The notes below the pieces were generated by a model, which was not told where the DNA came from, did not search any database, and saw only the letters and a list, made by a program, of their open reading frames with translations. DNA of 64,000 nucleotides from a virus. Positions 22,319-57,800 of this stretch are shown in pieces. The translations under genes were made by a program, and so were the position numbers. The stretch lies in IMG/VR virus record IMGVR_UViG_3300021185_003853, positions 50,313-114,312 of that record. The stretch is one strand, 5' to 3'. Positions within the stretch are counted from its first letter, which is position 1. Each line of letters opens with the position of its first letter.

Positions 22319-25300
22319 ATGTCTAGTTTAACGAATATTAATAATAACACAAGGGTAGTCAATGTAGGTAGAACAACCCCAGTTGCTCCAGGTCAACAAC
22401 CTGCATCAAAATCAATTCCTGTTGTTCTGGCTACTGATCAAACCGCTATTCCTGTTGTTGAGCAGAATAAAGTTCAATCAGAAGTTTCATTATCTTTGTT
22501 GGGTATTCCTCGATCAGAAGTTGCCTTAGGTATTTTTGCAGACGTTAATACTTACGATGTAAACCCATCAGAATGGTCATCGAGTCCTCAATACTACATT
22601 TCGGGTGATATTGGCGGTCATGGTATTAAACATTTGCCGACTGAAGCGGGTGCGCTTGTTGAAGCACCTCGTGATGAAAGTGCTGTACTGACTTCAAAGC
22701 GTTTCTTCAGATATCAACCAGGTCGTGTATCTGCGGCAACATTCGGCATCAAGTCATCTATTTCAACTGCTGATTACGCAAGAAATCCTGCTATTCGCAA
22801 ATATGGCATCTTTGATAACTTTGACGGATATTATTGGGAAACAAAACAGTCAGGTAAAGGTGATAACTTTAATGTTGTGCGTAGAACACAATCTTTAATG
22901 CACTTTCCACCTTCGCCGTTTGGTTTAACTAATGAGGTTTTACGTAAACCCAACCCTGCTGCAGACGATGAACCTATACCGTACAATCAAACAGATGATT
23001 ATCGCATCATCGGTAAGGAAGGAAAAGAATTAAAAACAGATGTACTTGAGCGTGATAGACAAGTATTAAGTGATAATATCCTTAGTATCGCTAAAAACGC
23101 ATTCAATAATCTATTAACTGCATCTGGTGGCACCAACGACTTCGCTGATTTTTATAATAACACTAATGGTAATGGTAATAATAGTGCCAACGAAGGCCTT
23201 GCCACTCCTTATGACAGATACGAATTTAAACAAAAGTGTCATCGTGACGTTCAATTTGCTCTTAAGATGATGTTGATGGATCTTGAATGGGGCGGTGATG
23301 CACATACAAGAATCAATACAAAAAATTATCAAACAGGACTTTTCAACTCGTATTTTCCAAATACCGCCACCGGCACTCCTGTACCTCCGGGGCAATTTGA
23401 ACTTGATTTGCATACTAATGCAAGAGCGATTGCTGTCGGTTTGCCGGGATTGACTTCACCGGGTGTAAGTAAGATCGGAGCATTATACGACTTTTTAGTT
23501 AAAGTTTCTGGAACAAACAATAAAGGATTCTTTAACAGAATAGTTGCTGGCGTATCGGCAACCAATGCGTATCCGCCAATCACAGGCACCAATGCTTCAT
23601 TAACAACGCTAAGCTATGGGTCAAAGAGTAAAGTTGATACGCTCATTGATACAAGAAAGCATTATTGGTCGTATTTTGTATCGTCATTTGTATTTGTGAA
23701 TAATGATCCCGATAACACTGCCACTAAACAAACATACAAATTTAATGCATTTGCAAATTATCTTCCTGAAGGTTACAATGCTTCGTTGATAGGTAAAGAA
23801 TTAAGTGGGTCAAATTATCCTTATGCATTGAACGAGTCAATAGACGGTGTTCCGCTTGCTGACGCTGCTGACGTTCTTGCTGTAAATGAATTTTACAGAA
23901 ACATAAAATATAAATGTGCTCGAGATCTCGAATACATTGTCAACGGGTATAAGGATGATATTGTTGGCGGCGGTAATGCTCAGACCCTTTACAACGCATC
24001 AATGTATTATAAAGCTGCGGGGTTATCAATCTTTACACAGGAAGACAGTGATATTCCTCGTGAAGTTGCGAAACATAATCATCTAAAACAATGGATACAA
24101 TCAGATTTTGAGGATTCAGATATTACAGGATTTGATTTACCTGTCACATCACCAGAAATTGTTAAGTTAAACTCTTTGTATGGCATCATAGATTCCAACT
24201 TCGTTAGAGAAACAAAAGAAGGTGTTGAGTTAGGTAGTCGTGGATTCGCAGGTAACCTGATTGCATTTAGAGACGGATTGTTGATGACACATGCAGCCGT
24301 CAATGACCCTAGCATGCTGAAAGACGCTAAACAAATAAGAACAACTGTTAAAGAACAATTTGATGATAGTCAACCTACATGCTTTAAGTTGGCAACAGGT
24401 AACGTGACTTTCGGGCAAAATGTTAAGGTTCTAACAACAGGAAATGAAACGCAAATTAGTGACGGAAACAACTTCACTTCAGATACAACAGGCAATGTTG
24501 TCGAAACTGTTGTTGCTGAATACGGAGGCATTTATAAGGTCAGTCGTGTTTACGGTCCTACAGGCAGTGAATTTACTCTACAGGATCAAGACGGAAATGA
24601 TATCTATGCTATGAGAGGTTCTGCTGATAGTGGCACTCTTATCACAGATACAATTGTTATTGAAACTGTTGTTGCGTTTATTGGCGATGTTGTATACAAT
24701 CCTGCTGAATATAGATTGGCAACTGGCATCCGTGCAGAAAGAACGATTCAATCGTATGACGGCACCGATGATACTATTCAATACACAGAAAATACAGACC
24801 CATTCCCGAAAGGTATGCAATGGCCGTATCGATATTCATCATCTGCGCAATTAGGTGATGCGACTGCTAAGTTTATTGGGCACATCGATACCTCTTTGAG
24901 TCCTAATGATGCTACTGAAATAGGTACAATTCGTCAACAATATGATGAAATTAATTTTACACCTGAATATATTAACTGGATTAAGAATAATGTTAAACCA
25001 GAATATTGGGGTGTTTACGAATATCGTGTGCCACGGTCAAGATTCAGTCATGACAAATTAGACGGCAAAACGTCTAAGAGAGTTTACAGCGATTTAGCAA
25101 CAGGTAATACTGGTATTGTTCGTCCGGGCATGGAAGTGCTAGACGAAGACGGCATCTGGACAGATGCTGTATCAGAATATGATTTTGACTTCACTAAAGT
25201 AACGATGCTTAAAATTGAGTTCTCGTGGTATGGTGCGGTAGGTGCATTGTTCCTTGCTTATGTTCCAATCGGTAACGGCGAAGCACGATGGGTAAGAGTA

Positions 25301-26593
25301 CATCACCTAAGAGCATCGAATCAGTTGAAGATCGCATCTCTTGGTAACGCAACACTACCAATCACATACAATGTATATGGCGGAGGATCGCCAGCAGCAT
25401 TTGGTGACGGAGAGGTTGCAACGCATACTTACGGAAGTTCACAGAGCCACCATATTGTAAAATACGGTGCTTCATACTACATCGATGGTGGTGACCGTGG
25501 CACTGTTCGTCTGTACAGCCATAATAATAATAGCCCCGTTGCTGCATATGGCAAGAAATGGGAAATGGGACAAGCAATCACCAGCGGCGTTCTTAATTTG
25601 AATGGGCAAACTCAAACATCGGGTGGCGAAGCATTGCCAATGCTAGCTGGCGGCAATAATGATTTGTCGTTACAATACTTTATGGGTGCAGAGTTAAAGA
25701 CTAACAGTGCTCTTGATGCAGGCATTAAAGTTGTTTGGGTCGATACTGCTACTGATAGATTGTATTTCTCAAGAAATCCTATAGGAACTGGTGTTACATT
25801 GATTCCTGATCGTGGTGAACTTGTTTACGGATTAGAGACAAAAGATTTCATTCTAAGCACTGTTGAAGGAAACCCTGTACGTAACAGAGTACAAGTGTAC
25901 CCAACAAAGTTATCAAGTGCAAATCTTAACTCTGGTCCTGTTCGATTAACTATGAAAAGAACTCCGATATTCCAGACCCTTACAACTATTGATTCAAGTT
26001 CAGCGCTCGCAATAGGATCAGATCCTTATATTGTAAGTGCTTCTAATGACCCATTGAACGTAGCAGAAACGAATACATATTTACAAAACGGCGAATCAAT
26101 TTACGGATGGTTCCAGGGAGTTATCGGCGCAATTGACGAAGAAACAATTTTCGGCAGATTGTATAAGAAAACAAATAGTTATTATTTTGAAGTTTTGCAA
26201 TCATTTGGTGATACAATCACGCTCAATGCTGATGGCAAATTTCTTCCTGATGTGAGGTATGTGAGAAACCCCTCAGGTGAAATTACCGGCCTTGTTGCCG
26301 ACACAGTAACAAAAACAGAAGTTCCTTTGCAGGATACATTGACATCAATTAAAGTGTTTGATAATCCTGTTACACCCATTCCGGGTACAGGTGCCAATGT
26401 CGCTACGCTATACTTAGCACAAAATGGAACAGAGCAGTTAGATCTCGATACGTATTTTGATTATAATAAAGAATATCTATCCTACCCACTAACAGATGAA
26501 GCGGAAACATTGTATTTTGTTGTTGATAAAGATACAGCAGCAGATGCTACCCCGAATGAAATAGCAATAGGATTGACATGGGAAGAACAATAG
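22319..26593 (+). CDS. Giant virion structural protein, paralogue A
   Basis: A 1424-aa protein paired with the next gene. Shared blocks: SLSLLGIPRSEVALGIFADV (near 60), RFFRYQPGRVSAATFGI (near 128), a PRSRFSHDKLDG block near 905, KIEFSWYGAVGALFLAYVPI (near 962) and KYGASYYIDGGDRGTVRLYS. Unlike its paralogue it contains two C-x-R-D helical motifs, at C307 (CHRDVQFALKMMLMDL) and C533 (CARDLEYIVNGYKDD), which also occur four times in the protein at 40877. Large proteins with these blocks are common in marine T4-like virions, but their function is not established. It ends directly against the next gene's ATG with no spacer. No enzymatic motif is seen. Confidence 0.72.
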   Translation: MSSLTNINNNTRVVNVGRTTPVAPGQQPASKSIPVVLATDQTAIPVVEQNKVQSEVSLSLLGIPRSEVALGIFADVNTYDVNPSEWSSSPQYYISGDIGGHGIKHLPTEAGALVEAPRDESAVLTSKRFFRYQPGRVSAATFGIKSSISTADYARNPAIRKYGIFDNFDGYYWETKQSGKGDNFNVVRRTQSLMHFPPSPFGLTNEVLRKPNPAADDEPIPYNQTDDYRIIGKEGKELKTDVLERDRQVLSDNILSIAKNAFNNLLTASGGTNDFADFYNNTNGNGNNSANEGLATPYDRYEFKQKCHRDVQFALKMMLMDLEWGGDAHTRINTKNYQTGLFNSYFPNTATGTPVPPGQFELDLHTNARAIAVGLPGLTSPGVSKIGALYDFLVKVSGTNNKGFFNRIVAGVSATNAYPPITGTNASLTTLSYGSKSKVDTLIDTRKHYWSYFVSSFVFVNNDPDNTATKQTYKFNAFANYLPEGYNASLIGKELSGSNYPYALNESIDGVPLADAADVLAVNEFYRNIKYKCARDLEYIVNGYKDDIVGGGNAQTLYNASMYYKAAGLSIFTQEDSDIPREVAKHNHLKQWIQSDFEDSDITGFDLPVTSPEIVKLNSLYGIIDSNFVRETKEGVELGSRGFAGNLIAFRDGLLMTHAAVNDPSMLKDAKQIRTTVKEQFDDSQPTCFKLATGNVTFGQNVKVLTTGNETQISDGNNFTSDTTGNVVETVVAEYGGIYKVSRVYGPTGSEFTLQDQDGNDIYAMRGSADSGTLITDTIVIETVVAFIGDVVYNPAEYRLATGIRAERTIQSYDGTDDTIQYTENTDPFPKGMQWPYRYSSSAQLGDATAKFIGHIDTSLSPNDATEIGTIRQQYDEINFTPEYINWIKNNVKPEYWGVYEYRVPRSRFSHDKLDGKTSKRVYSDLATGNTGIVRPGMEVLDEDGIWTDAVSEYDFDFTKVTMLKIEFSWYGAVGALFLAYVPIGNGEARWVRVHHLRASNQLKIASLGNATLPITYNVYGGGSPAAFGDGEVATHTYGSSQSHHIVKYGASYYIDGGDRGTVRLYSHNNNSPVAAYGKKWEMGQAITSGVLNLNGQTQTSGGEALPMLAGGNNDLSLQYFMGAELKTNSALDAGIKVVWVDTATDRLYFSRNPIGTGVTLIPDRGELVYGLETKDFILSTVEGNPVRNRVQVYPTKLSSANLNSGPVRLTMKRTPIFQTLTTIDSSSALAIGSDPYIVSASNDPLNVAETNTYLQNGESIYGWFQGVIGAIDEETIFGRLYKKTNSYYFEVLQSFGDTITLNADGKFLPDVRYVRNPSGEITGLVADTVTKTEVPLQDTLTSIKVFDNPVTPIPGTGANVATLYLAQNGTEQLDLDTYFDYNKEYLSYPLTDEAETLYFVVDKDTAADATPNEIAIGLTWEEQ

Positions 26594-29500
26594 ATGCCAA
26601 GACAGGTCAAAATTGGATTTGATAAGGTACCATCACCTCCAGTAAAAACGTATCATCAACTTACCGACATTTTCGGTACGCCGCTAGAAGATCTAGCAGG
26701 CAACCCTCTTGTTACAGAAGAAAATTCTGTAATATCTACCTTCGCACAGGCAAACAATTCATTATCGAGTTTTGTTGCTAATAAAGAATCGTCAGAAAGC
26801 ATTCCTATAGCAGAGAAATTTGGCACTGACTCAGAGGTAAGTACTACACTCCTAGGTGTGACTCGTGCCGAAGAACAGTTGAGTTTATTTGCCGATGTAT
26901 CGACATATGGATTAGATGCATCTAATTGGAATTATTATACTGTAGGTCAAGGCAATTATCCTGTGCAATGGTATAGTAGAAAACATCCCGTTTTCGGCAA
27001 ACGAGGTTTTGCGGCATTTAAAGAAGAGACAAATGAGCAGGCATTGTACCTGAAATCTTTTCCTACGCAATTTCGTTATCCTCGTCATCCGAGCAAATCA
27101 ACTGACACCTTCTCTCCGACAAGTGATTTCGGTAAATACATAAGATTTATTGCTTTAGGAAGATGGCTATTTGAAATATGGAAAGATGTAGATCCTGTAT
27201 TTGCTGAAAACAACTTCTTGACAGATTGCTTGACTATTATCAGCTCATCAAAACAGCATATCCCAATAACAAAGCAATCATGGAACATGACTCCTGCGGG
27301 CGGATTTGCGTCTGAAGCACAATTCCATAATATAGTATACACATCAGATTCAAATAATGGCGATGACGATATACAAATTGCGATGGATCAAATTGAAAAA
27401 TGGACTCTGTTCTATTTCAGAATAAGAAATGAAACAGACACATATCCAAAATATGTGATTAATAACGGAGATGGATCAACGACAACATATCCTGTATTCA
27501 ATCTTGAGGTGTTTACAAATAATCCTATCCCAAATGTAGGACAATACTTGTATATTCGTGACTATGTAAGCGCTGAAGTAACACGTCCAGGAGGATCTTC
27601 AATAAACTCTTCAATAGGAGTTTTAGAAAGTCGAAAAACATTTAGGTATCAACCTGGTCGTGTATCAGGATTCACATTCGGATTAAGGTTAAAGAATAAT
27701 CCGGGGTCATCGGCGGACAAAATTGAATGGGGTTGTGCAAACCAGACAGATCAATATATGTTCCAGATTTCAGGTACAAAATTTAATATTGTTCGCAGGT
27801 CAACTATTGCGATTCCTAATGATGTTGTTGAAGAAGAAGGCGGCATGAACCTTGTTCCTGCTTCAGATTTCCAGACGGATGAACCAGAAGTCCCGCCAAG
27901 TCGTGATAACTCAAAACCTATGTACACTCTCACAATTCCTCGTGACAAATGGAACGGAGATAGATTAGACGGAAGTGGTCCCTCAGGGCATATCATTAAT
28001 CCTGAAAATGTTACAATGTACAAAATTGAATATTCATGGTATGGTGCAATTGGCGCAAAATTCTATGCATATGTTCCGATAGGTGGTGATGAATGCAGAT
28101 GGGTACGTCTACACACATTTGTAATCGAAAACAAATTACCTAATCCTGTTTTAGAGAACGCTGATTTTAAATTCAGATATGTGCTTTATAATAACGTAAC
28201 CGAGAATTTAACTGAACCTACGTTCATTTACAAATATGGGTCGTCATATTATATCGATGGAGGTGATGAAGGAAGTATTACTCTAAATTCAGTCACATCA
28301 GGTACAAGAACATTTGTAAACCCTAATAATACTGGCGCAATTATGGCGCTTCACCCCAAAGATTTAATATTTAACTCTTCAACAGATACGATATATGGCG
28401 GAACGGCTAACAATAAAAAAATATATCCGTTGACACTATCTGTATTTTCAAGTGATAATGTGCGTATTGATGTGAGTAAGGTTAAAGTTAGTCCTGATGG
28501 TCAACACGGCACAAAGTCGGTTGATCTTATAGCAGGCACTGCGTTCGAAAAAGATATTAAATTTACGATAACTGATAGAAGCCTTATAAATTTAACTGGT
28601 GATAGCCCGTCTTCATTTGATGTGCTAGACACAAACGCAAAGATTATCGGAGACGGTCTTTATAACATTTATACCGGCACTCTTTTCAACGCATTAAATG
28701 AAGTAAACACGACAAAGGCTGAGATACTGAGAAGAGAACAATATCGATTAGGTGCTGACACAATAGGTGAAGCGGTAAGGCTTGTTGACGACACAAGTAT
28801 TAATATTAATCCCACTGTAGACACAACAGTTTTCAATGCTAAACTTACTTCATATAGGAGTATAGTTGCATCTGACACTCCTATTCGAACTAATAGATTT
28901 AAAATACACTTCTTGAATCCCACAAAACGTGACTCGAGATATTCTTATTTTCATTGGGCTGATTTCGCAATAGGTGTTACTGGTGAAGCGCCGACAACAA
29001 CTGTTGAGAATACTCAAGCCGGACAACAAGGATATCTAAAATTTGGTGCATATGATCGTGTTTATCACGATACTATTCCTGAATCAGATTATGATAATAA
29101 TTATTATTTTGATATTAATAAGCAATTAATGGTTGAATGGACGAATCAACATCATGTTAATTCATTAAGAGATGTTGCTGATCTGCGTGAAGTAGAAGGA
29201 GCCCATGGCACCCGTCTCGAGCAAGATTATCGTATTCGGGGCACTGATCTACCTATGAGCAGAAAATTGTCTACTGGAAGAGTTAGCACAAAAGGTGTGC
29301 TAGGATGTGTTAAAGGTGAAGTGAGGGTTATAGAGTACCCGATATCTTTAATTGATGATCAAAATGTTCCCGTAAATGCTGACTTGAGGGTCGTCTTCAG
29401 TACTGCCGCATTTCCTCCTGTAACACAAAATACACTAGGAATTGCTGAATTAGGATTTAATGAGACAGGGTCGGGATATGTATTCATGACTGCGCCTGCT

Positions 29501-30190
29501 GTGCAGATAATAGACGGCGCACAGGTGTATGTTGCATATATCAAAAAACTAAACGGTGCGGCATCAGTAGCCGATTTTGCATTAACAGGAAGTTCGACAA
29601 CTTATGATCAGTCAACTCATGTCACATCAATTCAAGCAAAAGTTATTACACTAGAAGATGATAATAAAATTTCGAGTTCTGATAACGCAAAAGATTTTGT
29701 AGTACAGGACGTATATAGATTTAATATTCAGCCTTTGTATTTGTTTGTTGCAATGAAGTCAAACGCTCGAATAAATAATATCATCGTTGAAGAAATTACA
29801 TCAACTGAAAGAACGTCACATGTACCTAACTTTATAGGTACTACTAATGATATAGGATTTGATGATACATCGAACATAACAATAGAAAAAGATGTGTTGA
29901 CATCACATACCTTGTCACCTTCAAATTTTGTTCCTAAAGATGGATTATCAGGAATAAAGTTTGATATTAACACAAGCAATCCTGTTGCAGACGAAAAAGA
30001 AAAATTATATTCATTTTATGTGGGGCAAAACGAAGCTGTGAAATTTGGATTACAAGAAATATTTGATATTGATCGTGCTTACTTGACGAGCGGATTATAT
30101 AACAATGAGGCATTATATTTCAATGCGGTTCCCGTAGGCGATAATACGTCTGCTGATGTTCAAATGACATTAACAGTTAAGGAGCAGTAA
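26594..30190 (+). CDS. Giant virion structural protein, paralogue B
   Basis: A 1198-aa protein that starts immediately after the stop of paralogue A. It shares blocks with it in the same order: SEVSTTLLGVTRAEEQLSLFADVSTYG (near 78), KTFRYQPGRVSGFTFGLRL (near 349), PRDKWNGDRLDGSG (near 451), KIEYSWYGAIGAKFYAYVPI (near 475) and KYGSSYYIDGGDEGSITLNS. The helical C-x-R-D region present in A is missing here, and the spacing between shared blocks differs. The C-terminal third is separate, with a GSGYVFMTAPAVQI strand pair near 960 and a terminal GQNEAVKFGLQEIFDID segment. I infer tandem duplication followed by domain gain or loss. Its stop overlaps the next start as TAATG. Confidence 0.72.
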   Translation: MPRQVKIGFDKVPSPPVKTYHQLTDIFGTPLEDLAGNPLVTEENSVISTFAQANNSLSSFVANKESSESIPIAEKFGTDSEVSTTLLGVTRAEEQLSLFADVSTYGLDASNWNYYTVGQGNYPVQWYSRKHPVFGKRGFAAFKEETNEQALYLKSFPTQFRYPRHPSKSTDTFSPTSDFGKYIRFIALGRWLFEIWKDVDPVFAENNFLTDCLTIISSSKQHIPITKQSWNMTPAGGFASEAQFHNIVYTSDSNNGDDDIQIAMDQIEKWTLFYFRIRNETDTYPKYVINNGDGSTTTYPVFNLEVFTNNPIPNVGQYLYIRDYVSAEVTRPGGSSINSSIGVLESRKTFRYQPGRVSGFTFGLRLKNNPGSSADKIEWGCANQTDQYMFQISGTKFNIVRRSTIAIPNDVVEEEGGMNLVPASDFQTDEPEVPPSRDNSKPMYTLTIPRDKWNGDRLDGSGPSGHIINPENVTMYKIEYSWYGAIGAKFYAYVPIGGDECRWVRLHTFVIENKLPNPVLENADFKFRYVLYNNVTENLTEPTFIYKYGSSYYIDGGDEGSITLNSVTSGTRTFVNPNNTGAIMALHPKDLIFNSSTDTIYGGTANNKKIYPLTLSVFSSDNVRIDVSKVKVSPDGQHGTKSVDLIAGTAFEKDIKFTITDRSLINLTGDSPSSFDVLDTNAKIIGDGLYNIYTGTLFNALNEVNTTKAEILRREQYRLGADTIGEAVRLVDDTSININPTVDTTVFNAKLTSYRSIVASDTPIRTNRFKIHFLNPTKRDSRYSYFHWADFAIGVTGEAPTTTVENTQAGQQGYLKFGAYDRVYHDTIPESDYDNNYYFDINKQLMVEWTNQHHVNSLRDVADLREVEGAHGTRLEQDYRIRGTDLPMSRKLSTGRVSTKGVLGCVKGEVRVIEYPISLIDDQNVPVNADLRVVFSTAAFPPVTQNTLGIAELGFNETGSGYVFMTAPAVQIIDGAQVYVAYIKKLNGAASVADFALTGSSTTYDQSTHVTSIQAKVITLEDDNKISSSDNAKDFVVQDVYRFNIQPLYLFVAMKSNARINNIIVEEITSTERTSHVPNFIGTTNDIGFDDTSNITIEKDVLTSHTLSPSNFVPKDGLSGIKFDINTSNPVADEKEKLYSFYVGQNEAVKFGLQEIFDIDRAYLTSGLYNNEALYFNAVPVGDNTSADVQMTLTVKEQ

Positions 30191-33100
30191 TGGCTATATA
30201 CACAGGTCTTAATGTATCATTACACCTAAATGATTTAAATAATTCTAGCGAGTCTTTAAGAAACTTGGGAATGGATCGCAAGGATTTTGATCATATTCGT
30301 GGGCTCAGTAATGTTTTAGAGACAAGGAACCAGCTTCATTTGCTAGGAAACCTTGACGTTGATCAACAAAAACAAACATATCTAATGTATCGATCAGCAA
30401 CCAGTATGAGTGCAGAATTAGATAATATTGATGACACGAACAAGCCGTTACCTTACGATATTCGCATCAATAATCAGTTACGTGCTGGCGCAATAAAATA
30501 TAAGTATTTAGACGGATCAAATACAATTAAAAGTGCTGATATTTCGACAAGTCGTGTATCTTCGTGGTCGCAGATAGGTGACGGGCCGATCTTTTACGGC
30601 GCTGATGTAAATATTAATCCTTATGATGGATCTGATGCTTCAACAGGCGATCCCAACAAAAGCATTTTAAAATTAAAAGATATCGTATTTAAAGGCGAAT
30701 TTTCTCCTAAACGATTTGCCGCTGAAGTTCCTACGCACACGGTCACTGTAAATGTAAACGGAGTTGATCGTGAATTATATGCTATGCGCAACATTCCTAT
30801 GCGATTTGAAGGTAATTTTTCTAGTGCAAAAGTTACATATTCAATTGATAATGCATCTATTGCGCCGACAGTTTTATTTGTAGATCCTCAAAATTTTGAT
30901 CCGCAGTTAGAGATTGCCGTAACAGGTCCTACGAGTACACTAAATCATACCGCTGAAGTAACAAACATCAAAGGCGGCGATAAATTTATTGATATTTACT
31001 ATAGACCTGATGGGTTAAAAAAGTTAACATTGCCTGCTATGCAACTGTTTGATTTCCCTGCAATAGAGTTAAGGAATTTAAATTCAATATCTGTTGCAAA
31101 TAATAAATTAGAAAATATGCCCGATTGGTTTGCTATCAGCGGAGGCAACCTTACTGGGCATACACAGGCATTAACAACAGTTACAATGTCAGGTAATCCG
31201 CTATATAAATCTTCTGATGTTGCCAACACACAATTGCAAAAACTGCCCAGGTCAGTGCAAACATTAAATATACATGGATGCTTTTCTGATTCAACTCCTA
31301 TTGATATAAGCCAATTAAAACAAGGTGGAGGATCAACAACTTTAGTCGACTCGAATTTAAAATATTTCAGGTTTAGTGGATGGAATAATAATAAAAGAGT
31401 TGACATGAAAGATACAGGCACAACACCAAAGGTCAATGTTTCTACGATTCTGAATTATCAAGTCAGATATCATCCGTATACTCGTTTAAGTTATAGTGCA
31501 GCAGGCGCACCAAATTTGAACAGCTTAGATCTTTATGGAATGAATATAAATTCAGCAGAGCAAGCAAATGGATCAACAACATCAACGATCACAATTGCTT
31601 CTTCAGGCATTCAAACTATAAACATGGACTATAATGCTATAGACGTAATAGACGTCTCGGGTAAACAAGAACTTACATCTTATACACACAGACATAATCA
31701 CAATAGTGCAAACAATAATATAGAAACATTGTTTACTGGATGTGTTGCGTTATCTTCTTTAGATTTTGAAAATTCGAGTGTGACAGGAAACTTAGACAGT
31801 ATTTTCACGGGACTTCCTGAACTATCATTACTAGATTTGCGAAACACTAGATTGACGGGAAAGATGACCGCTAACGCTTTCGCCGGAACGAAATTACAAG
31901 AATTTAGCTGTACAAATGGCCAATTTGTTACTGCAGCCGGCCAAAACAACTTTTTCGGCAACGACCATATCCCTATAGCAAATGAACCTCCCGGAGCAGT
32001 AGGGTCAGATTATGCTGGTGGTTATTATGCAGGAACAATTGTTGATAACAGCAACGAAGAGTATTGGTTAGTTGTTTCAGATAAAAGTCACGAAGTCATA
32101 CGTTCACGATATGCAATTCTTGGAGGTAACGGAACTTCTGGGTCAACAGATGCAAGGACTGGCTTAGATAATACTACTGTTGAATTTAATACCTCAGATT
32201 ATGAAGCAGCGAGTTATGCTTTGGGATTGAGTGTTACAGATGGCGATACAACATACGATGATTGGTATATTCCGTCAAAAAGTGAACTTGAAATGATGTA
32301 TCGGAATTTCAAACCGACATCAACACCTAATGACACATCAAGCGGGAACAATCCTCATTCTAGGCCAACATATACGACAACCTATAATGATAACCCGATA
32401 AATCCCACACAAACGCCTTTCAGTGCTTTTCAGACAGGTGGCGCACAAGCATTTTCAACGCCTGCGCCTCAACAATATGTGTCTAACTTCAATTTCTCTT
32501 CAGGGACAACTGGGTGGACAGGGTTTAATGGCGCAACAATATCTGTGCCACAAGGAAGCAGTAATAAGATTCGTGTAGCGCAAGATTCTGCCGGAACTGC
32601 CGCATCAGGAACGCCAAGTGCAACCGATGCAGTTGCCGGTAACGCAGGTGTATTCCAGACGGTAACTCTACCTGCTGGGACATATGATTTTGATTTTGAA
32701 TTTGCTGCTTCTAGAGCAACAATCCCTTCTGGGTCATTTGTTTCTGGTGAGACATATGAAATTGTAAGTTTAGGAATTGCACCAACATTTAATAATATTA
32801 CATATTCAAGCATCAATCAAACCAATGATAGAATCACGCTAGGTTCTGGGCACGGATTAACTAACGGAACAATTGTTACATTTAGTCATGTTTCAGGTGT
32901 CACAGAAAGTTTTACAAATTTAGCTACTGGGACAAATTACAGGGTTGTTGATACAGCGGCCGCTTCTATTAAATTAGAACCTGTCGGTGGCGGTGGCGCA
33001 ATTGATATTGCTCAATCTGCAGATGTGACTCATGCATATACAATTACTGCCGGTGACGGAACTGATTATACGTTTGATGCAGGAACGGATCGATCTGCTG

Positions 33101-34608
33101 CTGCAACCGGAACAACAGATCCTGACATTATCATACTTTTAGGTGATACAGCAACATTTGATTTAACCGCTTTGGCAGGCGCTCATCCTTTGTATATAAA
33201 AACAGCATTAGGTTCAGGCACAACAAATCAAATAACAGATGCAACTGTAACAGGTCAAGGCACGGACAATGTCTCATTCACTCCAACATCAGCAGGACAA
33301 TATTTTTATCAATGTTCTGCTCATCCTGATATGGAGGGAACAATTACTGTACTGCAAAGAACAGGAACATTTGGTATTGCTGTTGATCTTGCAGAGAATT
33401 GGAGTGATATTGGTGCAAGTACTGTTGCTGTGGGAGCAAACTTCGATGCTTCAGGGTCATATGCTACAGGAACTACTCTTTACGGTGCATCTGTTGCACT
33501 CGCAAGTAGCAACGACCTTTATGAGCATTATGTGTACGGATTAATATCACCAGGAACTGACCCTGATGCTTCAACCATAGGAAATTCAGTTGCAAGCTAT
33601 TCATATGATGTTATAAACGATACTGCTACGATTTCAGGTAATGGGACTACTTCTGCAAGCACATTTACTGTTGATGCGCAAGCAACATATGTTGTAAGTT
33701 TAAAATCATTTGCATTTGATCTTGATGTCACAAAAATATCAATTCGAAGCAGAGAAGGATATTATTGGACATCAACTAGCTCATCAGCTGTTAATACTCA
33801 GGGTATTGCACAAAACTTCGACAATGGTGAACAGGTTGATGTGCATAAAGATCACAGATATTTGGTGCGCCCAGTTAGGCGAGTAAGTAAAAACTCTGAC
33901 GTATCTGCTGAGCAACAAGGCACATCATTAACATTCCAACCTGTTCAATCAACTTTGGTTAATTTTACGCTTGAAGGTCAAGGAAGAAATGCATCGACAG
34001 GGCCTAATGTACGAGGCAAGATGCCTAATACTGCATATCTTGCACAAATACAAACCTTTAGTTTGACCAATACGCAAATCGAAGGAATTATTCCTGATTT
34101 CAGCAACTCTCTGAACTTGAATAAGTTGATTTTAAGCAATAACAATTTTACAGGTCCTTTTGCAATTAACAATCCTTCAGTGGCGCAAGTTGAAATTCAA
34201 AATAACAACTTGACAGGGATAGGGTCACTATTTGCTGCAAATATGTGGAAATTGCATGGTCAGGATAACGATTTTGAAAATGCTGTGCCGTCTTTCGTAG
34301 CGTGTCAAGATATATCTGATATAAATTTAAGCAGGAATCAGTTTACTGGGTATTTGGCAGGGTCTTTGTCCACAAACCTCGAATTGAAAAAATTAAATTT
34401 ATCAGAGAATGCATTAACAGAGGGTGCTGCACAGAGAATATTCGAAGACATGATGACAAACTGGACTGCTAATACACGAGATGGAGTGACTGTAAATCTA
34501 TCGGGCAATCCTCAAGTGAGAGAATCTAGATTAATTAAAAACGCAACCACAGGCGGAATTATACGAGAGTTAAGATCTGTTGGTTGGACAATATTGCTCA
34601 ACGCATAG
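30190..34608 (+). CDS. Mosaic adhesin: leucine-rich repeats with nested DUF1566-like and cupredoxin-like domains
   Basis: A 1472-aa protein with nested architecture. Residues about 277-590 are leucine-rich repeats (for example LNSISVANNKLENMPDWF, LSLLDLRNTRLTGKM); the LRR type resumes at 1282-1450 (LNKLILSNNNFTGPF, LKKLNLSENAL). Between them is a DUF1566/Lcl-like lectin fold: first half about 602-755 (DDWYIPSKSELEMMYRNFKP), second half about 1183-1237 (YYWTSTSSS...NGEQVDVHKDHRYLVRPVRRV). Inside that domain lie a beta-sandwich-like segment (about 760-850), fragments of two dispersed modules, and a cupredoxin-like domain (about 970-1058) whose expected copper ligands are all present: H999, C1042, H1045, M1048 in QCSAHPDMEGTITV. 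LRRs and lectin-like folds both suit receptor binding. Function is inferred; nothing in the sequence identifies the ligand. Confidence 0.78.
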   Translation: MAIYTGLNVSLHLNDLNNSSESLRNLGMDRKDFDHIRGLSNVLETRNQLHLLGNLDVDQQKQTYLMYRSATSMSAELDNIDDTNKPLPYDIRINNQLRAGAIKYKYLDGSNTIKSADISTSRVSSWSQIGDGPIFYGADVNINPYDGSDASTGDPNKSILKLKDIVFKGEFSPKRFAAEVPTHTVTVNVNGVDRELYAMRNIPMRFEGNFSSAKVTYSIDNASIAPTVLFVDPQNFDPQLEIAVTGPTSTLNHTAEVTNIKGGDKFIDIYYRPDGLKKLTLPAMQLFDFPAIELRNLNSISVANNKLENMPDWFAISGGNLTGHTQALTTVTMSGNPLYKSSDVANTQLQKLPRSVQTLNIHGCFSDSTPIDISQLKQGGGSTTLVDSNLKYFRFSGWNNNKRVDMKDTGTTPKVNVSTILNYQVRYHPYTRLSYSAAGAPNLNSLDLYGMNINSAEQANGSTTSTITIASSGIQTINMDYNAIDVIDVSGKQELTSYTHRHNHNSANNNIETLFTGCVALSSLDFENSSVTGNLDSIFTGLPELSLLDLRNTRLTGKMTANAFAGTKLQEFSCTNGQFVTAAGQNNFFGNDHIPIANEPPGAVGSDYAGGYYAGTIVDNSNEEYWLVVSDKSHEVIRSRYAILGGNGTSGSTDARTGLDNTTVEFNTSDYEAASYALGLSVTDGDTTYDDWYIPSKSELEMMYRNFKPTSTPNDTSSGNNPHSRPTYTTTYNDNPINPTQTPFSAFQTGGAQAFSTPAPQQYVSNFNFSSGTTGWTGFNGATISVPQGSSNKIRVAQDSAGTAASGTPSATDAVAGNAGVFQTVTLPAGTYDFDFEFAASRATIPSGSFVSGETYEIVSLGIAPTFNNITYSSINQTNDRITLGSGHGLTNGTIVTFSHVSGVTESFTNLATGTNYRVVDTAAASIKLEPVGGGGAIDIAQSADVTHAYTITAGDGTDYTFDAGTDRSAAATGTTDPDIIILLGDTATFDLTALAGAHPLYIKTALGSGTTNQITDATVTGQGTDNVSFTPTSAGQYFYQCSAHPDMEGTITVLQRTGTFGIAVDLAENWSDIGASTVAVGANFDASGSYATGTTLYGASVALASSNDLYEHYVYGLISPGTDPDASTIGNSVASYSYDVINDTATISGNGTTSASTFTVDAQATYVVSLKSFAFDLDVTKISIRSREGYYWTSTSSSAVNTQGIAQNFDNGEQVDVHKDHRYLVRPVRRVSKNSDVSAEQQGTSLTFQPVQSTLVNFTLEGQGRNASTGPNVRGKMPNTAYLAQIQTFSLTNTQIEGIIPDFSNSLNLNKLILSNNNFTGPFAINNPSVAQVEIQNNNLTGIGSLFAANMWKLHGQDNDFENAVPSFVACQDISDINLSRNQFTGYLAGSLSTNLELKKLNLSENALTEGAAQRIFEDMMTNWTANTRDGVTVNLSGNPQVRESRLIKNATTGGIIRELRSVGWTILLNA

Positions 34609-34617
34609 GTATCATAA

Positions 34618-35754
34618 ATGGCAATCGGATTTGCAAAAACATCAAACTTATTCGAATCGCAAGATTCAAATTCTGCGACTAAAATATTTAACAATCTTGC
34701 AGGAGAAGGCATTTCTTCTGATATTGCGTTATTTACGAATAACTTACGCACAGTAACTGAACTTGATTACACAAATTTCAAAGCAAGTGCGCAATCTTTT
34801 CCTTCTCCAGATGAGGTTTTTTATACTGTAGGAAATGCTGCCGCATACGAGTTTATAGTCATTCCTTCTAGCGACTTCGGCAAAGTTCCGTTTAGTAATA
34901 ATTCGATCATATATGTTGTACAGAATAATAGTATTAAAACTTCGTATATAGTTGACGACAGCAATGGCATCGATAGGTTCAGACTTTATGCTTGGAACGG
35001 CACAACAAAAGGTGCTGTCGCATCATGGGACGATTTTAAGGATCTTGCAACCAAAAAGTTTTTTAGGCCAGATCCTGTCACATTTGCTAACATAACCAAT
35101 TACTCTAAAGATCGCATAACAATGAACGATGAGTCAACATCTTTAGAGAATCCGTATTCATTACCAGAAGAGTTACAAACTAGCAATAGAGATCGGTCAC
35201 AACAAGTAACATTTCTAAAAACTCTTACGCCACAAAGTTTGAATAGTCGAATTGATAGTGCAATAGAGAGTTTTCAGTATAAAGAATCAAGAAGTATACT
35301 TACACACAGAAAGGCTATACTTAATAAATTATTGAACGTGGGCGGCACTTTGCAAATAGCAAATGATGCTGGCTTAGTGCTAGGCACTACAGCAACCAAT
35401 GACACGATGCCAGGATTATATATCATGGCTGATGGCGTTAAGGAAAGAGCGTTTTCTGACACGAACAACCCATGGGTTGTAGGGACTGAAGATTTGATTT
35501 CTTATGATACTGATGACACTGTGCTCGCAACAGAAAGTTTTATAAAAACTGCTTCGACAACACAAGATGCACAAGTGTTCAATCTGCTTTATAAGGGTCC
35601 CAATCCACACATAATAACAACAAACGCTTCAGGTGTCAGGACAACCAATGGTTCAAAAGTAGTCGACTCAACATGGACACATAAAGCGAAAGTTGAAATT
35701 AATGGCGAAGCATATTATATATTACTAACCGATCAAGCAAGCACCTTTACTTAA
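34618..35754 (+). CDS. Virion structural protein of unknown function
   Basis: A 378-aa protein, not recognised as a named family. It follows the LRR gene by 9 bases and keeps the block's style (MAIGFAKTSNLFESQ start, Ser/Thr/Asp rich, beta-prone). A helical middle section (about 188-240: LTPQSLNSRIDSAIESFQYK, ILTHRKAILNKLLNVGG) is followed by beta strands and an end reading INGEAYYILLTDQASTFT. Its TAA stop is shared on the opposite strand with the stop of the convergent minus-strand gene (TTAA at 35751-35754). The last codons lie in a 10-bp inverted repeat with the end of that gene. Position among fibres suggests a virion component. Confidence 0.6.
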   Translation: MAIGFAKTSNLFESQDSNSATKIFNNLAGEGISSDIALFTNNLRTVTELDYTNFKASAQSFPSPDEVFYTVGNAAAYEFIVIPSSDFGKVPFSNNSIIYVVQNNSIKTSYIVDDSNGIDRFRLYAWNGTTKGAVASWDDFKDLATKKFFRPDPVTFANITNYSKDRITMNDESTSLENPYSLPEELQTSNRDRSQQVTFLKTLTPQSLNSRIDSAIESFQYKESRSILTHRKAILNKLLNVGGTLQIANDAGLVLGTTATNDTMPGLYIMADGVKERAFSDTNNPWVVGTEDLISYDTDDTVLATESFIKTASTTQDAQVFNLLYKGPNPHIITTNASGVRTTNGSKVVDSTWTHKAKVEINGEAYYILLTDQASTFT

Positions 35755-35789
35755 TCCATTAATATCCAATAATCTTTGTAGGTGCTTGC
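35737..35789. terminator. Inverted repeat spanning the tail-to-tail gene junction, candidate bidirectional terminator
   Basis: GCAAGCACCT at 35737-35746 is repeated as its reverse complement AGGTGCTTGC at 35780-35789, a perfect 10-bp stem with a 33-base AT-rich loop. The convergent stop codons (shared TTAA, 35751-35754) are in the loop. A stem here could stop transcripts from both strands. The loop is long for an intrinsic terminator and no strong T-run follows, so this is tentative. In both genes the arm encodes Ala-Ser-Thr near the C-terminus. Confidence 0.4.
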
Positions 35790-38300
35790 GCCTGTTTTCT
35801 CTTTTAACAGCAACCCTTTACTTGCTGTTGCTGCTGTAGGAGAACTGACCTCTGTTGTATCTGCCTGTTCAATATTGATACCGGTTATTTCAAAGTCTCC
35901 GCCTATGGATAAATGCGGATGCGATGCAACTGTTGATAGTCCCAAGTCAGTTCCTGCAAAAGGTGGTGCAGTATTTAATGGGATAATACACAATTCTTTA
36001 TCGCCGGTTGACGGATCGCTTCCGGGATCATTCGCATCTTTTACAAATATTAATGTTCTTGAAGCAGGCAAACTGCCAATAAGTCCTGTTGATAATGTAA
36101 TTGACGGAGGATTTGTTGCACTATTTACGCTAGAAACTCGAGTCGTATTTGTCCCTGAAACTATTCCCGGGAGTTGTACGAAATCACCGCTACTACCTGA
36201 AGTAATATTACTCACATCTGTTAAGAATATTTGCGTGGCGCCAGAATTTGCTGTAACAGCGACTTCTTTTCCGTAAACACCTTCACATTGTGCAGACGTT
36301 GAATGATCAGATAGCCCACGATGAGCATATACAAGACACCAATTGTACGCATCACTATTAAATGTTTCGTTTCCTATAGGATTTGACGTAACTACAACAG
36401 TATCCATGCCTTGTGAGGTAGTAATACTAACGATATCTACTAATTTCCTGCATGTATTTTGCGTAGTGTTTAATGTTATCAGAAGATCATCCGGACGCAT
36501 ATCACTTGAGTTGTATTGGTGTCCTGTATAGGGTGTTGTAACCGTAGCATCTCCAGTCCATGAGTTACCCGCTTCTTTTAAAAAATGATTAGTCTCTGTA
36601 GCTGATGATAAATTGCGATCAAATTGATGTTGAAAGATGCCCAACAATCCTTTTGGCTTAACAACAAAATAATTTTGCGATTGGCCGATTGGCATGGCTC
36701 CTGCGATAGCAGCCAGATCTTCGACCATCGACCCCTTAAAGGGTTCCGTGATAATAATATTATCTCTTACTTCATGTACTTGAAAATAGTAGTAGTGAGT
36801 GCCATCGGCAAAAGCAGGCAACAATATATCACCTTCTTCAACAAATGTTGCTGATGTGACAAACGTCTTTCCGCCTAAATATGTAAAGGGATAATTTGCA
36901 CCGCTATTTTTAACATAATCATTTACAGAGGTTGTCGGCGCATAATCAATGTACACGGGTTTTTCGTTCTGTAGATACTGATCAGTCTTTTTCAATCTAC
37001 CGCTGATTCTATTTCTTTTGAAATGATCAAATGTGTTCACCTTTGCTACGCTATCAGGTGTCAATTGCGGCGTTTTATACCAATAGTTAAAAGGTGTGGT
37101 GCTTGCGGAAGTTTCAGCTGTATCATGTATGTTGAAAAAGAATTTTAACGGGCCATATGTAGTCACATCAGTTTTAAAGTTTGAGCTGCTTCCGTCTGAC
37201 ATTCCCGGAATAAGAGTGTGGTCTCCCCCAAATTGCTCTGGACGTGGGTACCATACAGTTAGTCGTATTCTATTCGTTTGTCCTTTGGCTTTACTGCCAA
37301 ATGGGTTAAAGTCGACACGTAAATCATCTTCACCTATATTCCATGTAAATCCCAATCCCGCCCCGGCAGATACATCATTTAACCCTGATCCTGGTCCGTC
37401 AATTTTTTCAATATCGATTGTGTTAGCAGAGTGATTTACATCTATTATTTTGTATGTGCTAGACCCCTGAGTTATTTTCATTCCTTCCCATGCATATTGC
37501 ATAGATGTGGAAGTGATTTGAATTCCGGTCAGCTGGTTTGCATTATTGGCAATACCGACTTCTAGTTCGAGCATCACCTCATCAAGACCTTCACCTGATA
37601 CACGCTTTATAGTTTCCCATGCTGAGGTTGATTCATTGTATTCTTCGAATAAGCAAAATGCATTAGTAATAATTGATAAATCATTATTATGATATGCTGA
37701 AAAATGTCCTTCCCAGCACAGAGCGCCAAAAGATGATGTAAATGTCGGATGCAATGGTCCACTGAATGCAAATCTGCCGTCAATCCAATAATCTTCATCC
37801 GTTAATATTCTTCCTGCTGCATTTGTTGTATCGAAAATATCATCAGCAGTAATAGTATGGCCCGTATCGCTAGCCCACTGTTCAATAAACAGCCTACCTG
37901 CCGCATCTTTTAATGCTTCGGGGGGAACAACAAATGCATTCGGGCCCGTACCGCCTAAGTGATATGCGGGATCACCTAACACAACTTTCTTTGTTTGGAT
38001 TATGTCTTTAATTGTGATCAACGGCTCAACAGGTGCAGGAACACCTATAGTGAGTCCGCCAGTATTAGGATCAGTTACAATTGGAGTATATAACACTTCG
38101 GTGTTTGCAAGAGGCGCTAAATCTTCAGCAAATACATTTGTAGTTTTTAATCCGTTGATTACTGTTAGATCTGATGGCGTAAATGTTTGCCCAGGTGTAA
38201 AGTCATCTAGGATATTTGCCAATGCCTTTGATTTATTTGTAAGATCTGATAGATTTCTATCTGCTCTTAATCCGAACCTTGTATATTTTGAAATTGCCAT
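35751..38300 (-). CDS. Large virion structural protein on the opposite strand
   Basis: An 849-aa protein, the only convincing minus-strand gene in the window. The N-terminus, KYTRFGLRADRNLSDLTNKSKALANILDD, then FTPSDLTVINGLKTTNVFAEDLAPLANT, is a pattern I associate with structural proteins of marine T4-like phages. The rest is beta-rich, and includes DPAYHLGGTGPNAFVVPPEAL and DYWIDGRFAFSG; the end reads KTGASTYKDYWILMD. A GAGGA ribosome site precedes the ATG on the minus strand, and a minus-strand TATAAATA box lies 33 bases upstream. Downstream it converges with the 378-aa gene, sharing TTAA as a double stop. The codon and amino-acid style matches its neighbours, so it does not look foreign. 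Function unknown; an appendage or baseplate component is likely. Confidence 0.75.
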   Translation of the reverse strand: MAISKYTRFGLRADRNLSDLTNKSKALANILDDFTPGQTFTPSDLTVINGLKTTNVFAEDLAPLANTEVLYTPIVTDPNTGGLTIGVPAPVEPLITIKDIIQTKKVVLGDPAYHLGGTGPNAFVVPPEALKDAAGRLFIEQWASDTGHTITADDIFDTTNAAGRILTDEDYWIDGRFAFSGPLHPTFTSSFGALCWEGHFSAYHNNDLSIITNAFCLFEEYNESTSAWETIKRVSGEGLDEVMLELEVGIANNANQLTGIQITSTSMQYAWEGMKITQGSSTYKIIDVNHSANTIDIEKIDGPGSGLNDVSAGAGLGFTWNIGEDDLRVDFNPFGSKAKGQTNRIRLTVWYPRPEQFGGDHTLIPGMSDGSSSNFKTDVTTYGPLKFFFNIHDTAETSASTTPFNYWYKTPQLTPDSVAKVNTFDHFKRNRISGRLKKTDQYLQNEKPVYIDYAPTTSVNDYVKNSGANYPFTYLGGKTFVTSATFVEEGDILLPAFADGTHYYYFQVHEVRDNIIITEPFKGSMVEDLAAIAGAMPIGQSQNYFVVKPKGLLGIFQHQFDRNLSSATETNHFLKEAGNSWTGDATVTTPYTGHQYNSSDMRPDDLLITLNTTQNTCRKLVDIVSITTSQGMDTVVVTSNPIGNETFNSDAYNWCLVYAHRGLSDHSTSAQCEGVYGKEVAVTANSGATQIFLTDVSNITSGSSGDFVQLPGIVSGTNTTRVSSVNSATNPPSITLSTGLIGSLPASRTLIFVKDANDPGSDPSTGDKELCIIPLNTAPPFAGTDLGLSTVASHPHLSIGGDFEITGINIEQADTTEVSSPTAATASKGLLLKEKTGASTYKDYWILMD

Positions 38301-44816: not shown

Positions 44817-45161
44817 ATGGCACAATTAAATACGTTTAAGTCAGTACAACATAAATTCAAATTATCTTCAGCGGGAGATTCTGATAAATTAGTTTACAAA
44901 GCACCGTTCGGATATACAGCAATTGTTCTGAATGCACAATGTGCAAATATTGGTGCGGCAGATAGAACTGTCACATTTAAACTGAAAAAAGGAACAACAG
45001 AATCTATATTGGTTGATGAATTGGTTATCCCGCCAAACGATGCTGCTAACTTAGCAACAGGTAAATTAGTTCTACAAACAGGTGATGAATTAATCGGGTT
45101 TGCTAGCGATGCAAATGATTTAGATTTAACATTAAGTTTCTTGGAAACATTAGATGCGTAG
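44817..45161 (+). CDS. Small beta-rich virion protein
   Basis: A 114-aa protein placed 1 base after the 1312-aa gene. It reads like a single beta-sandwich: KLVYKAPFGYTAIVLNAQCANIG, RTVTFKLKKGTTESILVDELVIPPNDAANL and KLVLQTGDELIGFAS. The PPNDAANLxxGKLVLxxGDxL pattern is a common shape in small phage structural proteins that bind fibres or decorate tails. It overlaps the next gene by 8 bases, so the two are probably translationally coupled. No closer identification. Confidence 0.6.
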   Translation: MAQLNTFKSVQHKFKLSSAGDSDKLVYKAPFGYTAIVLNAQCANIGAADRTVTFKLKKGTTESILVDELVIPPNDAANLATGKLVLQTGDELIGFASDANDLDLTLSFLETLDA

Positions 45162-55848: not shown

Positions 55849-56853
55849 ATGGCTAAAAATTATTATTTCGAAAATTTTGAAAACTCGATGGAGCAAACTC
55901 TTATTGAGGACCTCGTTATAGAGTCAATTAAAATTTTCGGCGTTGACTGCTTCTATGTCACCAAAACAAAGAAAACGAAAACTGCTGTATTAACAGTAGG
56001 TGCTAATGCGATTTGCACTCTTGACAATGGTTCTGTTGTGACTAATGATTCTAATGAGTTGCCGACATTTCTAAACAACGGATACGGATATCTTGCAGTA
56101 CCCACAGTTACATTTGAGGAACCTCCTGCAGGCGGAACTCGAGCAGAAGGCGTAGCAACTATCGTTCGAGGAATAGTAACAAAAATAGATGTCACTAATG
56201 CAGGAACCGGGTACACTTCTGTACCGTCAATTACGATTCAAACTCCTGATGATACTAATGTGGGACAACACGCCTTTGTAGATGGCGGATACGATGATTT
56301 GTTAAATGAAGACGATCTTCCCGGGTATAATTCAGCACTAGAAGTTGAAATGTATGTTAAAAATGTTGACGGATTCGAAGGTGAAGGCGACTTCTTGTCA
56401 AAATTCGGTTTACAAATTCGTGATTCAATGACGCTAACAGTTGCAATGAGAACATGGGAAAATGAAATAGGAGCGAATATACAAGATGATCGCACTCGTC
56501 CATTTGAAGGCGATTTAATATATTTCCCATTGAATAAAAAAGTTTTCAAAATCATGCATGTTGAACACGAGTCTATTTTCTATCAAATGGGATCGCTGCA
56601 AACATATGATTTAAAATGTGAATTGTTTGAGTACAGTAACGAACAATTTAATACAGGTGTACAGGAAATTGATACGCTATATGATGCATATAAAACTGTT
56701 GTTACTGGAGCGACATCTGGCGTTGATACCCCAGCCGCAAATGTAGAATCAGTTGATACCCTTGCAGACAACTTTACAATAGAACAAGTAGGAGATAATA
56801 TTCTTGATTTCAGTGAAGGAAATCCATTCGGTGAAGGCGAGGATTGGTTATAA
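55849..56853 (+). CDS. gp14: Neck protein gp14 with inserted beta module
   Basis: A 334-aa protein (T4 gp14 is 256 aa). The core starts with YYFENFENSMEQTLIEDLVI, then ESIKIFGVDCFYVTKT, and resumes with YDDLLNEDDLPGYNSALEVE, then MYVKNVDGFEGEGDFLSKFG, RPFEGDLIYFPLNKKVFKIM and YDLKCELFEYSNEQFNTG, all typical of gp14. Between about 45 and 140 is an insertion with two strand pairs, GYGYLAVPTVTFEEPP and AGTGYTSVPSITIQTP, linked by AEGVATIVRGIVTKIDV. This type of pair also occurs in gp8 and in the 1198-aa protein. The insertion accounts for most of the length difference from T4. The stop overlaps the next start by one base (TAATG). Confidence 0.92.
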   Translation: MAKNYYFENFENSMEQTLIEDLVIESIKIFGVDCFYVTKTKKTKTAVLTVGANAICTLDNGSVVTNDSNELPTFLNNGYGYLAVPTVTFEEPPAGGTRAEGVATIVRGIVTKIDVTNAGTGYTSVPSITIQTPDDTNVGQHAFVDGGYDDLLNEDDLPGYNSALEVEMYVKNVDGFEGEGDFLSKFGLQIRDSMTLTVAMRTWENEIGANIQDDRTRPFEGDLIYFPLNKKVFKIMHVEHESIFYQMGSLQTYDLKCELFEYSNEQFNTGVQEIDTLYDAYKTVVTGATSGVDTPAANVESVDTLADNFTIEQVGDNILDFSEGNPFGEGEDWL

Positions 56854-57800
56854 TGTTCGGAAATAAATTCTATCATCAAACAACTCGCAGGTATGTTGCA
56901 CTTTTCGGAACATTATTCAATGATATTATAATTGAACGAAAGGACAATTCTGGGCAATTAATTCAGTCAATGAAAGTGCCTATTCACTATGCTCCTATGG
57001 AAAAAATCCTTGCGAAGATTGAGCAAGACCCTGGTCTGAATAACCCTGCAGGAATGACGTTGCCGAGAATGTCATTCGAAATAGTTAATATGAATTTTGC
57101 TCCAGAAAGAAAATTAACATCATTGACTAAAAACACAAGGGTCTCAGATACAAATGATATACAGTCGTCTCAGTTCGTTCCTGCGCCATATGATATTGAA
57201 TTTCAACTAAATATTATGACAAAGCATACTGAAGACGGATTGAAGATCATAGAACAAATTATGCCTTTCTTCAAACCTGATTTCACAGCATCTGTAAAGT
57301 TGGTTGATGATATGGATTTATATGTCGATGTTCCTGTCATAATGAATAATATAACGATGAGCGATGAGTACGAAGGTGATTTCACAACAAGGCGTGTTTT
57401 AAATTGGTCGCTAAGTTTTACTATCAAAGGTTATTATTTTGGGCCTGTTACAAACAAAAAAGTTATTAAGTTTGTTGAGACGCAAACATACGAAGATTTA
57501 CCTTTCGTAAATCCTGCAGATCAACCCGCATTGCAACAATATACAGTACAACCAGGTGATCGTGTTACTTCAGGATCTTTCCAGGCAGCGAAAACATATA
57601 GGATATTAAATCTTGGCCAAGGCACATCACAGCAATGGAATGATGTTGCAGGAACAACTGGCGTAACATATGATATTGGAACGCAATTTACAGCGCAAAA
57701 CGATGGCAGTGCGATAACCGGCGGCATTGCAACATTAACATACTCTTATTTTGATGAAGATGATAATTGGAGTGCTATTGTAGTAATTGATGAGGATTAA
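56853..57800 (+). CDS. gp15: Tail completion / sheath stabiliser gp15 with extra C-terminal module
   Basis: A 315-aa protein from ATG 56853, which overlaps the gp14 stop; an in-frame codon 9 bases earlier is less likely. T4 gp15 is 272 aa. Conserved core: MFGNKFYHQTTRRYVALFGT, then LFNDIIIER, MKVPIHYAPMEKILAKIEQD, LPRMSFEIVNMNFAPERKL, YDIEFQLNIMTKHTEDGLKI and FTTRRVLNWSLSFTIKGYYF. After about residue 220 comes an added domain, GSFQAAKTYRILNLG...QQWNDVAGTT...GTQFTAQNDGSAI, the same module found at the end of gp7 and in a fibre. gp15 caps the tail at the head junction, so the add-on would be placed near the neck. Confidence 0.92.
   Translation: MFGNKFYHQTTRRYVALFGTLFNDIIIERKDNSGQLIQSMKVPIHYAPMEKILAKIEQDPGLNNPAGMTLPRMSFEIVNMNFAPERKLTSLTKNTRVSDTNDIQSSQFVPAPYDIEFQLNIMTKHTEDGLKIIEQIMPFFKPDFTASVKLVDDMDLYVDVPVIMNNITMSDEYEGDFTTRRVLNWSLSFTIKGYYFGPVTNKKVIKFVETQTYEDLPFVNPADQPALQQYTVQPGDRVTSGSFQAAKTYRILNLGQGTSQQWNDVAGTTGVTYDIGTQFTAQNDGSAITGGIATLTYSYFDEDDNWSAIVVIDED

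Follow-up and report, generated by a model that had tools for sequence, protein, structure and literature searches.

How does a phage protein come to carry domains that lie inside other domains? This question is raised by an open reading frame of 1472 aa among the structural genes of a 114-kb virus record (possibly a fragment), of which a stretch of 64,000 nucleotides, here called the window, was analyzed. The source is an uncultured, T4-like and probably marine phage. A sequence-only reading of the locus had proposed that domains were inserted stepwise into a receptor-binding protein with leucine-rich repeats (LRR). In our analysis the order of the domains from outside to inside is LRR[Lcl[CBM[SFV[FCCH+cupredoxin]]]], that is four insertion levels deep, and we consider it very probable that this architecture is indeed nested and arose by insertion. 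The features are as follows (window positions).

30190-34608, plus strand: whole open reading frame, LRR protein with nested insertions (open frame, orthologues, synteny)
30190-31014, plus strand: N-terminal domain, residues 1-275 (ADISTSRxSSWS motif, conserved in all orthologues)
31018-31983, plus strand: LRR solenoid part 1, residues 277-598 (Pfam, model, Foldseek)
31990-32463, plus strand: Lcl_C/DUF1566 N-half, residues 601-758 (joined Pfam match, profile of viral copies, MAFFT)
32464-32721, plus strand: CBM-like (DUF5013-like) sandwich, N-part, residues 759-844 (sub-threshold Pfam match)
32722-32778, plus strand: SFV N-half, residues 845-863 (profiles of intact copies)
32779-33024, plus strand: FCCH-like module, residues 864-945 (weak Pfam match; relatives in the same record)
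33025-33357, plus strand: cupredoxin-like domain, residues 946-1056 (Pfam, PDB match, H...C-x2-H-x2-M pattern)
33394-33477, plus strand: SFV C-half, residues 1069-1096, preceded by a 12-residue linker (profile of intact copies)
33478-33756, plus strand: CBM-like sandwich, C-part, residues 1097-1189 (sub-threshold Pfam match; weakest level)
33757-33885, plus strand: Lcl_C/DUF1566 C-half, residues 1190-1232 (Pfam, profile of viral copies, MAFFT)
33937-34605, plus strand: LRR solenoid part 2, residues 1250-1472 (Pfam, alignment with bare proteins, model, Foldseek)
26594-30190, plus strand: upstream neighbour, family phrog_1645 of virion structural proteins (an orthologue precedes the LRR gene in related contigs)
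34618-35754, plus strand: downstream neighbour (kept in most related contigs)

Repeats on both sides of the insert had been claimed for residues 277-590 and, resuming, 1282-1450, and this is borne out: Pfam LRR_8 matches at 521-565 (28.9 bits, cut-off 27) and LRR_4 at 1287-1320, and in Foldseek searches the models of both protein parts matched LRR folds. The Lcl_C/DUF1566 domain interrupts the repeats near residue 600.

When the whole protein was searched with Pfam, only the C-half of Lcl_C was matched (model 74-117). The piece 591-755 alone scored 13.1 bits (model 23-83) and the piece from 1191 alone 20.7 bits (model 79-117), and the two joined gave a single match to positions 24-117 of the 117 positions of PF07603, which at 33.2 bits (E 7.2e-8) narrowly missed the curated cut-off (34.9 bits). 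An independent profile, built from 45 uninterrupted viral copies of which none belongs to the LRR-protein family, matched residues 602-779 (E 4.5e-37, model 2-168) and 1189-1232 (E 3.9e-10, model 149-190). With this profile two complementary halves were found in all ten related records, broken each time near one and the same position of the model, and there was no real match in the relatives free of inserts. In MAFFT alignments the contiguous copies are gapped at residues 759-1190, i.e., over 432 residues, and the stand-alone protein AUM59635 (217 residues) of Pseudomonas phage PMBT3 can be aligned with the joined pieces over its whole length. The halves are exactly complementary in the ten records, at 35-50% identity, and keep the core residues conserved in contiguous copies. 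The Pfam scores that add up and the complementary profile halves thus confirm that one DUF1566 domain has been split; the two halves do not match two different complete domains. Of the boundaries proposed earlier, the start of the N-half moves from about 602 to near 601.

Between the Lcl halves sits a beta-sandwich resembling DUF5013/CBM_4_9, which is itself in two parts. With the parts joined DUF5013 scored 27.5 bits (model 57-144), so that the curated cut-off of 28.5 bits was not reached; with the whole protein it scored 21.3 bits (model 46-83). In the relatives the DUF5013/CBM match is weaker and in several there is none. Because of the missed cut-off and these weaker or absent matches we name the sandwich CBM-like only. 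A PDB search with the joined CBM-like profile returned nothing significant. The apparent split of the CBM-like domain is the weakest level of the nest.

Within the sandwich lies a module of about 60 residues which occurs in phages and for which we coined the label SFV (GSFVxGxxYxIxxLG...WNxxAxxxxxxYxxGxxFxA). It is cut at 863/1069 by the FCCH-like module and the cupredoxin. A profile of 11 intact SFV copies matched residues 845-863 (model 1-19) and, weakly, residues 1069-1093 (model 23-50), and the joined halves gave one match of 36.2 bits. The same pair of half-matches was found in the other proteins with the full nest. In two shorter relatives, L115 and L116, the module is intact (E 2.8e-32 and 3.5e-29 with a 4-row SFV model that included L115 itself).

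SFV is also present in unrelated phage proteins. A tblastn search of the phage collection with one SFV copy gave no match. In a 1503-residue protein of L150 (around 3001-3147), by eye a tail-tip (J-like) protein, SFV lies mid-way, which suggests that it has been inserted there too. Three other proteins of the same phage record, one of which matches a baseplate wedge family, carry intact copies.

Window 4135-7107: intact SFV, residues 901-969
Window 45154-48135: intact SFV, residues 119-175
Window 56844-57800: intact SFV, residues 240-296

The cupredoxin-like domain (residues 946-1056) is innermost. Its scores with Cupredoxin_1 (21.0 bits, cut-off 27) and Copper-bind (17.1 bits, cut-off 21.2) are both below the cut-offs; the best PDB match is amicyanin (E 0.0036), and a putative H, C, H, M copper-ligand pattern is present in the target and its relatives. 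For the approximately 430 residues between the Lcl halves, a part like a beta-sandwich and a cupredoxin-like domain had been predicted from the letters alone, and both stand, with the sandwich itself split (759-844 and 1097-1189). The supposed fragments of two dispersed modules have to be reinterpreted: residues 845-863 and 1069-1096 are the two pieces of one interrupted module, and the other module, which is FCCH-like (864-945), is apparently intact.

Cupredoxin-type modules also occur in unrelated phage proteins. In cyanophage proteins we observed such modules with a similar H, C, H, M pattern: one inside a subtilisin-like protein (L005 2795-5248), one in a fibre-like protein of phage P-SSM5, where it lies between repeats (L027 2180-3571), and apparently two in one large protein (L028 455-5270). 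An extra FCCH-like module is present in the first LRR part of L113 (residues 390-482) and L121 (residues 381-469); in the target and the other relatives this site is empty.

With single-protein scans just two near-identical relatives of the LRR protein were obtained, and alignment-based scans found orthologues in over twenty contigs. Relatives of the genes at 22319-26593 and 26594-30190 are located upstream in all contigs examined, and relatives of the gene at 34618-35754 and of the reverse-strand gene at 35751-38300 downstream in nearly all of them. Since the flanking gene order is shared, we regard the orthologues as occupants of the same gene slot. The reverse-strand gene shows 78-83% identity between near-identical phages, compared with 94-96% for its neighbours. 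In the isolated cyanophage S-TIM5 a distant relative (AEZ65694), annotated as virion structural protein, occupies this slot.

The orthologues differ in what they carry. Seven have the full nest (the target, L002, L003, L112, L113, L114 and L121), whereas L115 and L116 (1315 aa) have Lcl[CBM[SFV]] with SFV uninterrupted, and L111 has Lcl, sandwich and FCCH+cupredoxin without a recognisable SFV. The bare N-terminal domain and LRR, 788-902 aa in length, are found in L127, L128, L132, L135, L140 and L141. Other insertions in the LRR are present in L117, L130, L131, L133, L136, L138 and L144-L146; in these other clades insertions are found at four other positions of the core (residues 113, 393, 422 and 671 of L127). 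About 90 residues are inserted in the N-terminal domain before the ADISTSR motif in L145 (residues 122-214) and L146 (residues 115-204). An assembly artefact can be dismissed, since ten records, which come from several metagenomes, all carry the nest in open and intact form.

When 21 proteins were aligned globally, part of Lcl was placed wrongly against the bare-LRR rows, and we used an alignment with the Lcl span removed instead. Here the LRR of nested and bare proteins can be aligned across the junction (NFFGND, then after the junction GTSxxFxP...NIRGKMPN, in the former, versus DYFGTQDS...GSGEVFKNT...NIRGKLPD in the latter), and all six bare proteins have an empty LRR site. In a tree of the N-terminal domain, drawn with a midpoint root, the eight Lcl-bearing rows are one clade (100/100) beside or among the rows free of inserts, a topology which favours a gain of the Lcl nest. 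We therefore regard the domains as inserted, on the grounds of the complementary half-matches, the orthologues with fewer or no insertions and the single Lcl clade. At the outermost and innermost levels insertion is well supported by these comparisons.

The stepwise order that had been proposed is, taken strictly, a weaker claim than the insertion itself, because neither LRR[Lcl] nor LRR[Lcl[CBM]] turned up among the relatives searched and because in the tree the two shorter proteins are placed within the full-nest group. The middle steps are without surviving intermediates among the sequences searched. L115, with its intact SFV, groups with the full-nest proteins L112 and L114 (99/97), and its simpler state may stem from loss, from exchange with a free copy of SFV or from two separate gains. 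The chances are about even that the Lcl clade started from the full stack and that in L115 and L116 the inner insert was deleted, or their SFV exchanged through recombination with an intact copy elsewhere; the grouping just mentioned and the intact SFV copies elsewhere in such genomes agree with this, but two independent gains could explain the same pattern, and for the outer level, where bare-LRR rows surround the Lcl clade, deletion is inapplicable.

The missing LRR[Lcl]-only and LRR[Lcl[CBM]] relatives and the single Lcl clade would also be expected if Lcl[CBM[SFV]] as a cassette, or else the complete stack, had been built in another gene and had entered the LRR gene in one insertion. We are doubtful about this, as the nested order would still need successive insertions somewhere, at least the SFV/FCCH+cupredoxin level varies within the LRR-protein family, and among the Lcl copies examined no free-standing one has the same insert.

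In the history which we prefer, a protein of an N-terminal domain and an LRR solenoid with loops tolerant of foreign domains would have been the scaffold. One LRR loop probably took up a DUF1566/Lcl domain of the C-type-lectin-like kind; a CBM-like sandwich then went into a loop of this domain, the dispersed phage module SFV into a loop of the sandwich, and finally the FCCH-like module and the cupredoxin into the SFV module. Each host domain would still fold, its ends meeting around the insert, and by gain, loss or swap of modules the lineages would change what they display. More tentatively, the LRR protein could be an insertion platform on which SFV-like modules serve as landing sites and are exchanged by recombination between genes, so that stacks grow, shrink or are swapped as units. 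If so, phages would have a modular means to alter their surface display.

What the stack does can be approached from the domain types and the gene context. In the record T4-like baseplate wedge and tail-fibre genes lie 5′ of the LRR gene; the closest baseplate relatives among annotated phages are those of the Sinorhizobium phages phiN3 and phiM12, and for the gene that directly precedes the LRR gene the best relatives come from cyanophage S-TIM5. The C-terminal domain of Legionella Lcl is C-type-lectin-like, trimeric and binds glycosaminoglycans (PMC11162425), and DUF1566 is reported to be the commonest Pfam domain in the targets of diversity-generating retroelements (PMC4159848, PMC6642488); the kinship of DUF1566 with C-type-lectin folds, as the sequence-only reading had it, is thus in line with the literature. 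We lean slightly towards glycan or receptor binding, and infer as the likeliest role that of a display protein which binds glycans: the stack would be displayed on the particle and bind glycans of the host surface. A purely structural or decorating protein of the particle, with the inserts as tolerated passengers or stabilisers, seems to us the less probable alternative. The neighbouring genes do match PHROG families filed as head-and-packaging virion structural proteins, and bare-LRR orthologues persist without the extra domains; against this, Lcl/DUF1566, CBM-like and LRR domains are typical binding domains, and different clades keep different inserts.

Diversification of the Lcl domain by a retroelement is not supported for this phage. 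The 114-kb record, possibly a fragment, contains neither a match to a reverse transcriptase (RVT_1) nor a second copy of the Lcl C-half, and the C-half hardly varies among near-identical relatives. Pseudomonas phage Cruim01 (L022 171-1476 and 2098-2232) and the records L025 and L026 encode paired small DUF1566 proteins whose last approximately 40 residues differ between related phages. In Cruim01 an RT-associated RNA and a gene with the annotation retron-type reverse transcriptase come after the pair, and this locus may be a diversity-generating retroelement.

Structure prediction with AlphaFold2 for residues 460-1472 (41 rows) reached a mean pLDDT of 84.0 and a pTM of 0.48. The blocks of the Lcl domain were modelled with a pLDDT of 73-95 (N-half) and 87-93 (C-half), from an input alignment that already joined the halves. 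The model of residues 1-590 is poor at 77-178. In Foldseek the best matches of the large model are LRR structures in the PDB and partial matches to viral proteins in BFVD; such matches therefore speak neither for nor against the pairing of the Lcl halves. Another reading takes the halves as relics of an Lcl domain that decayed or was duplicated, and the domains between them as independent units strung like beads. The sequence-level nature of the evidence for pairing leaves room for it, but it is highly improbable given halves that are exactly complementary in ten of ten records at the identity stated above, retain the conserved core residues and are both confidently modelled.

As a rule, nested domain insertions are deduced from structures that are already complete. 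In the present case a single syntenic gene is available from about twenty phage lineages as bare scaffold, with insertions at five places, and with one module both intact and interrupted, and the build-up of a nested protein can be compared almost step by step across relatives lacking some or all insertions. With such a series, domain-in-domain insertion and loop tolerance become open to direct comparison and to simple protein experiments. In addition, boundaries are gained for annotating split phage domains, which standard profile searches miss or give as partial matches.

Several known systems share part of this organization. With stand-alone Lcl_C/DUF1566 domains (PF07603; the Legionella protein, PMC11162425; AUM59635 of PMBT3) the target has the motifs DWYxPSxxELExxYRxxKP and YYWxST...VRPVRR in common and a profile match across both halves; in contrast to them its copy is split by 432 residues and lies inside an LRR solenoid. 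AEZ65694 of S-TIM5 (1193 aa) has the same gene slot and related N-terminal and C-terminal LRR parts, with 23-31% identity in the best N-terminal matches, whereas Lcl and SFV were undetected in it. In the mosaicism of phage receptor-binding proteins (PMC10684548) modules are likewise shared by otherwise unrelated phage proteins, but in the target they have gone into loops and into each other. No protein of this kind, nested or with inserted domains, came up when the paper was searched by words. Nested domain insertions have been catalogued in ECOD, including six-level nesting in the cyanobacterial RNA polymerase beta' (PMC13114784), with the same A1-B1-C-B2-A2 recursion and different domain types. 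Nested insertion as such is therefore already known; in the present case it is found in a phage virion protein with orthologues that lack individual levels and with inner modules that are dispersed in other phage proteins.
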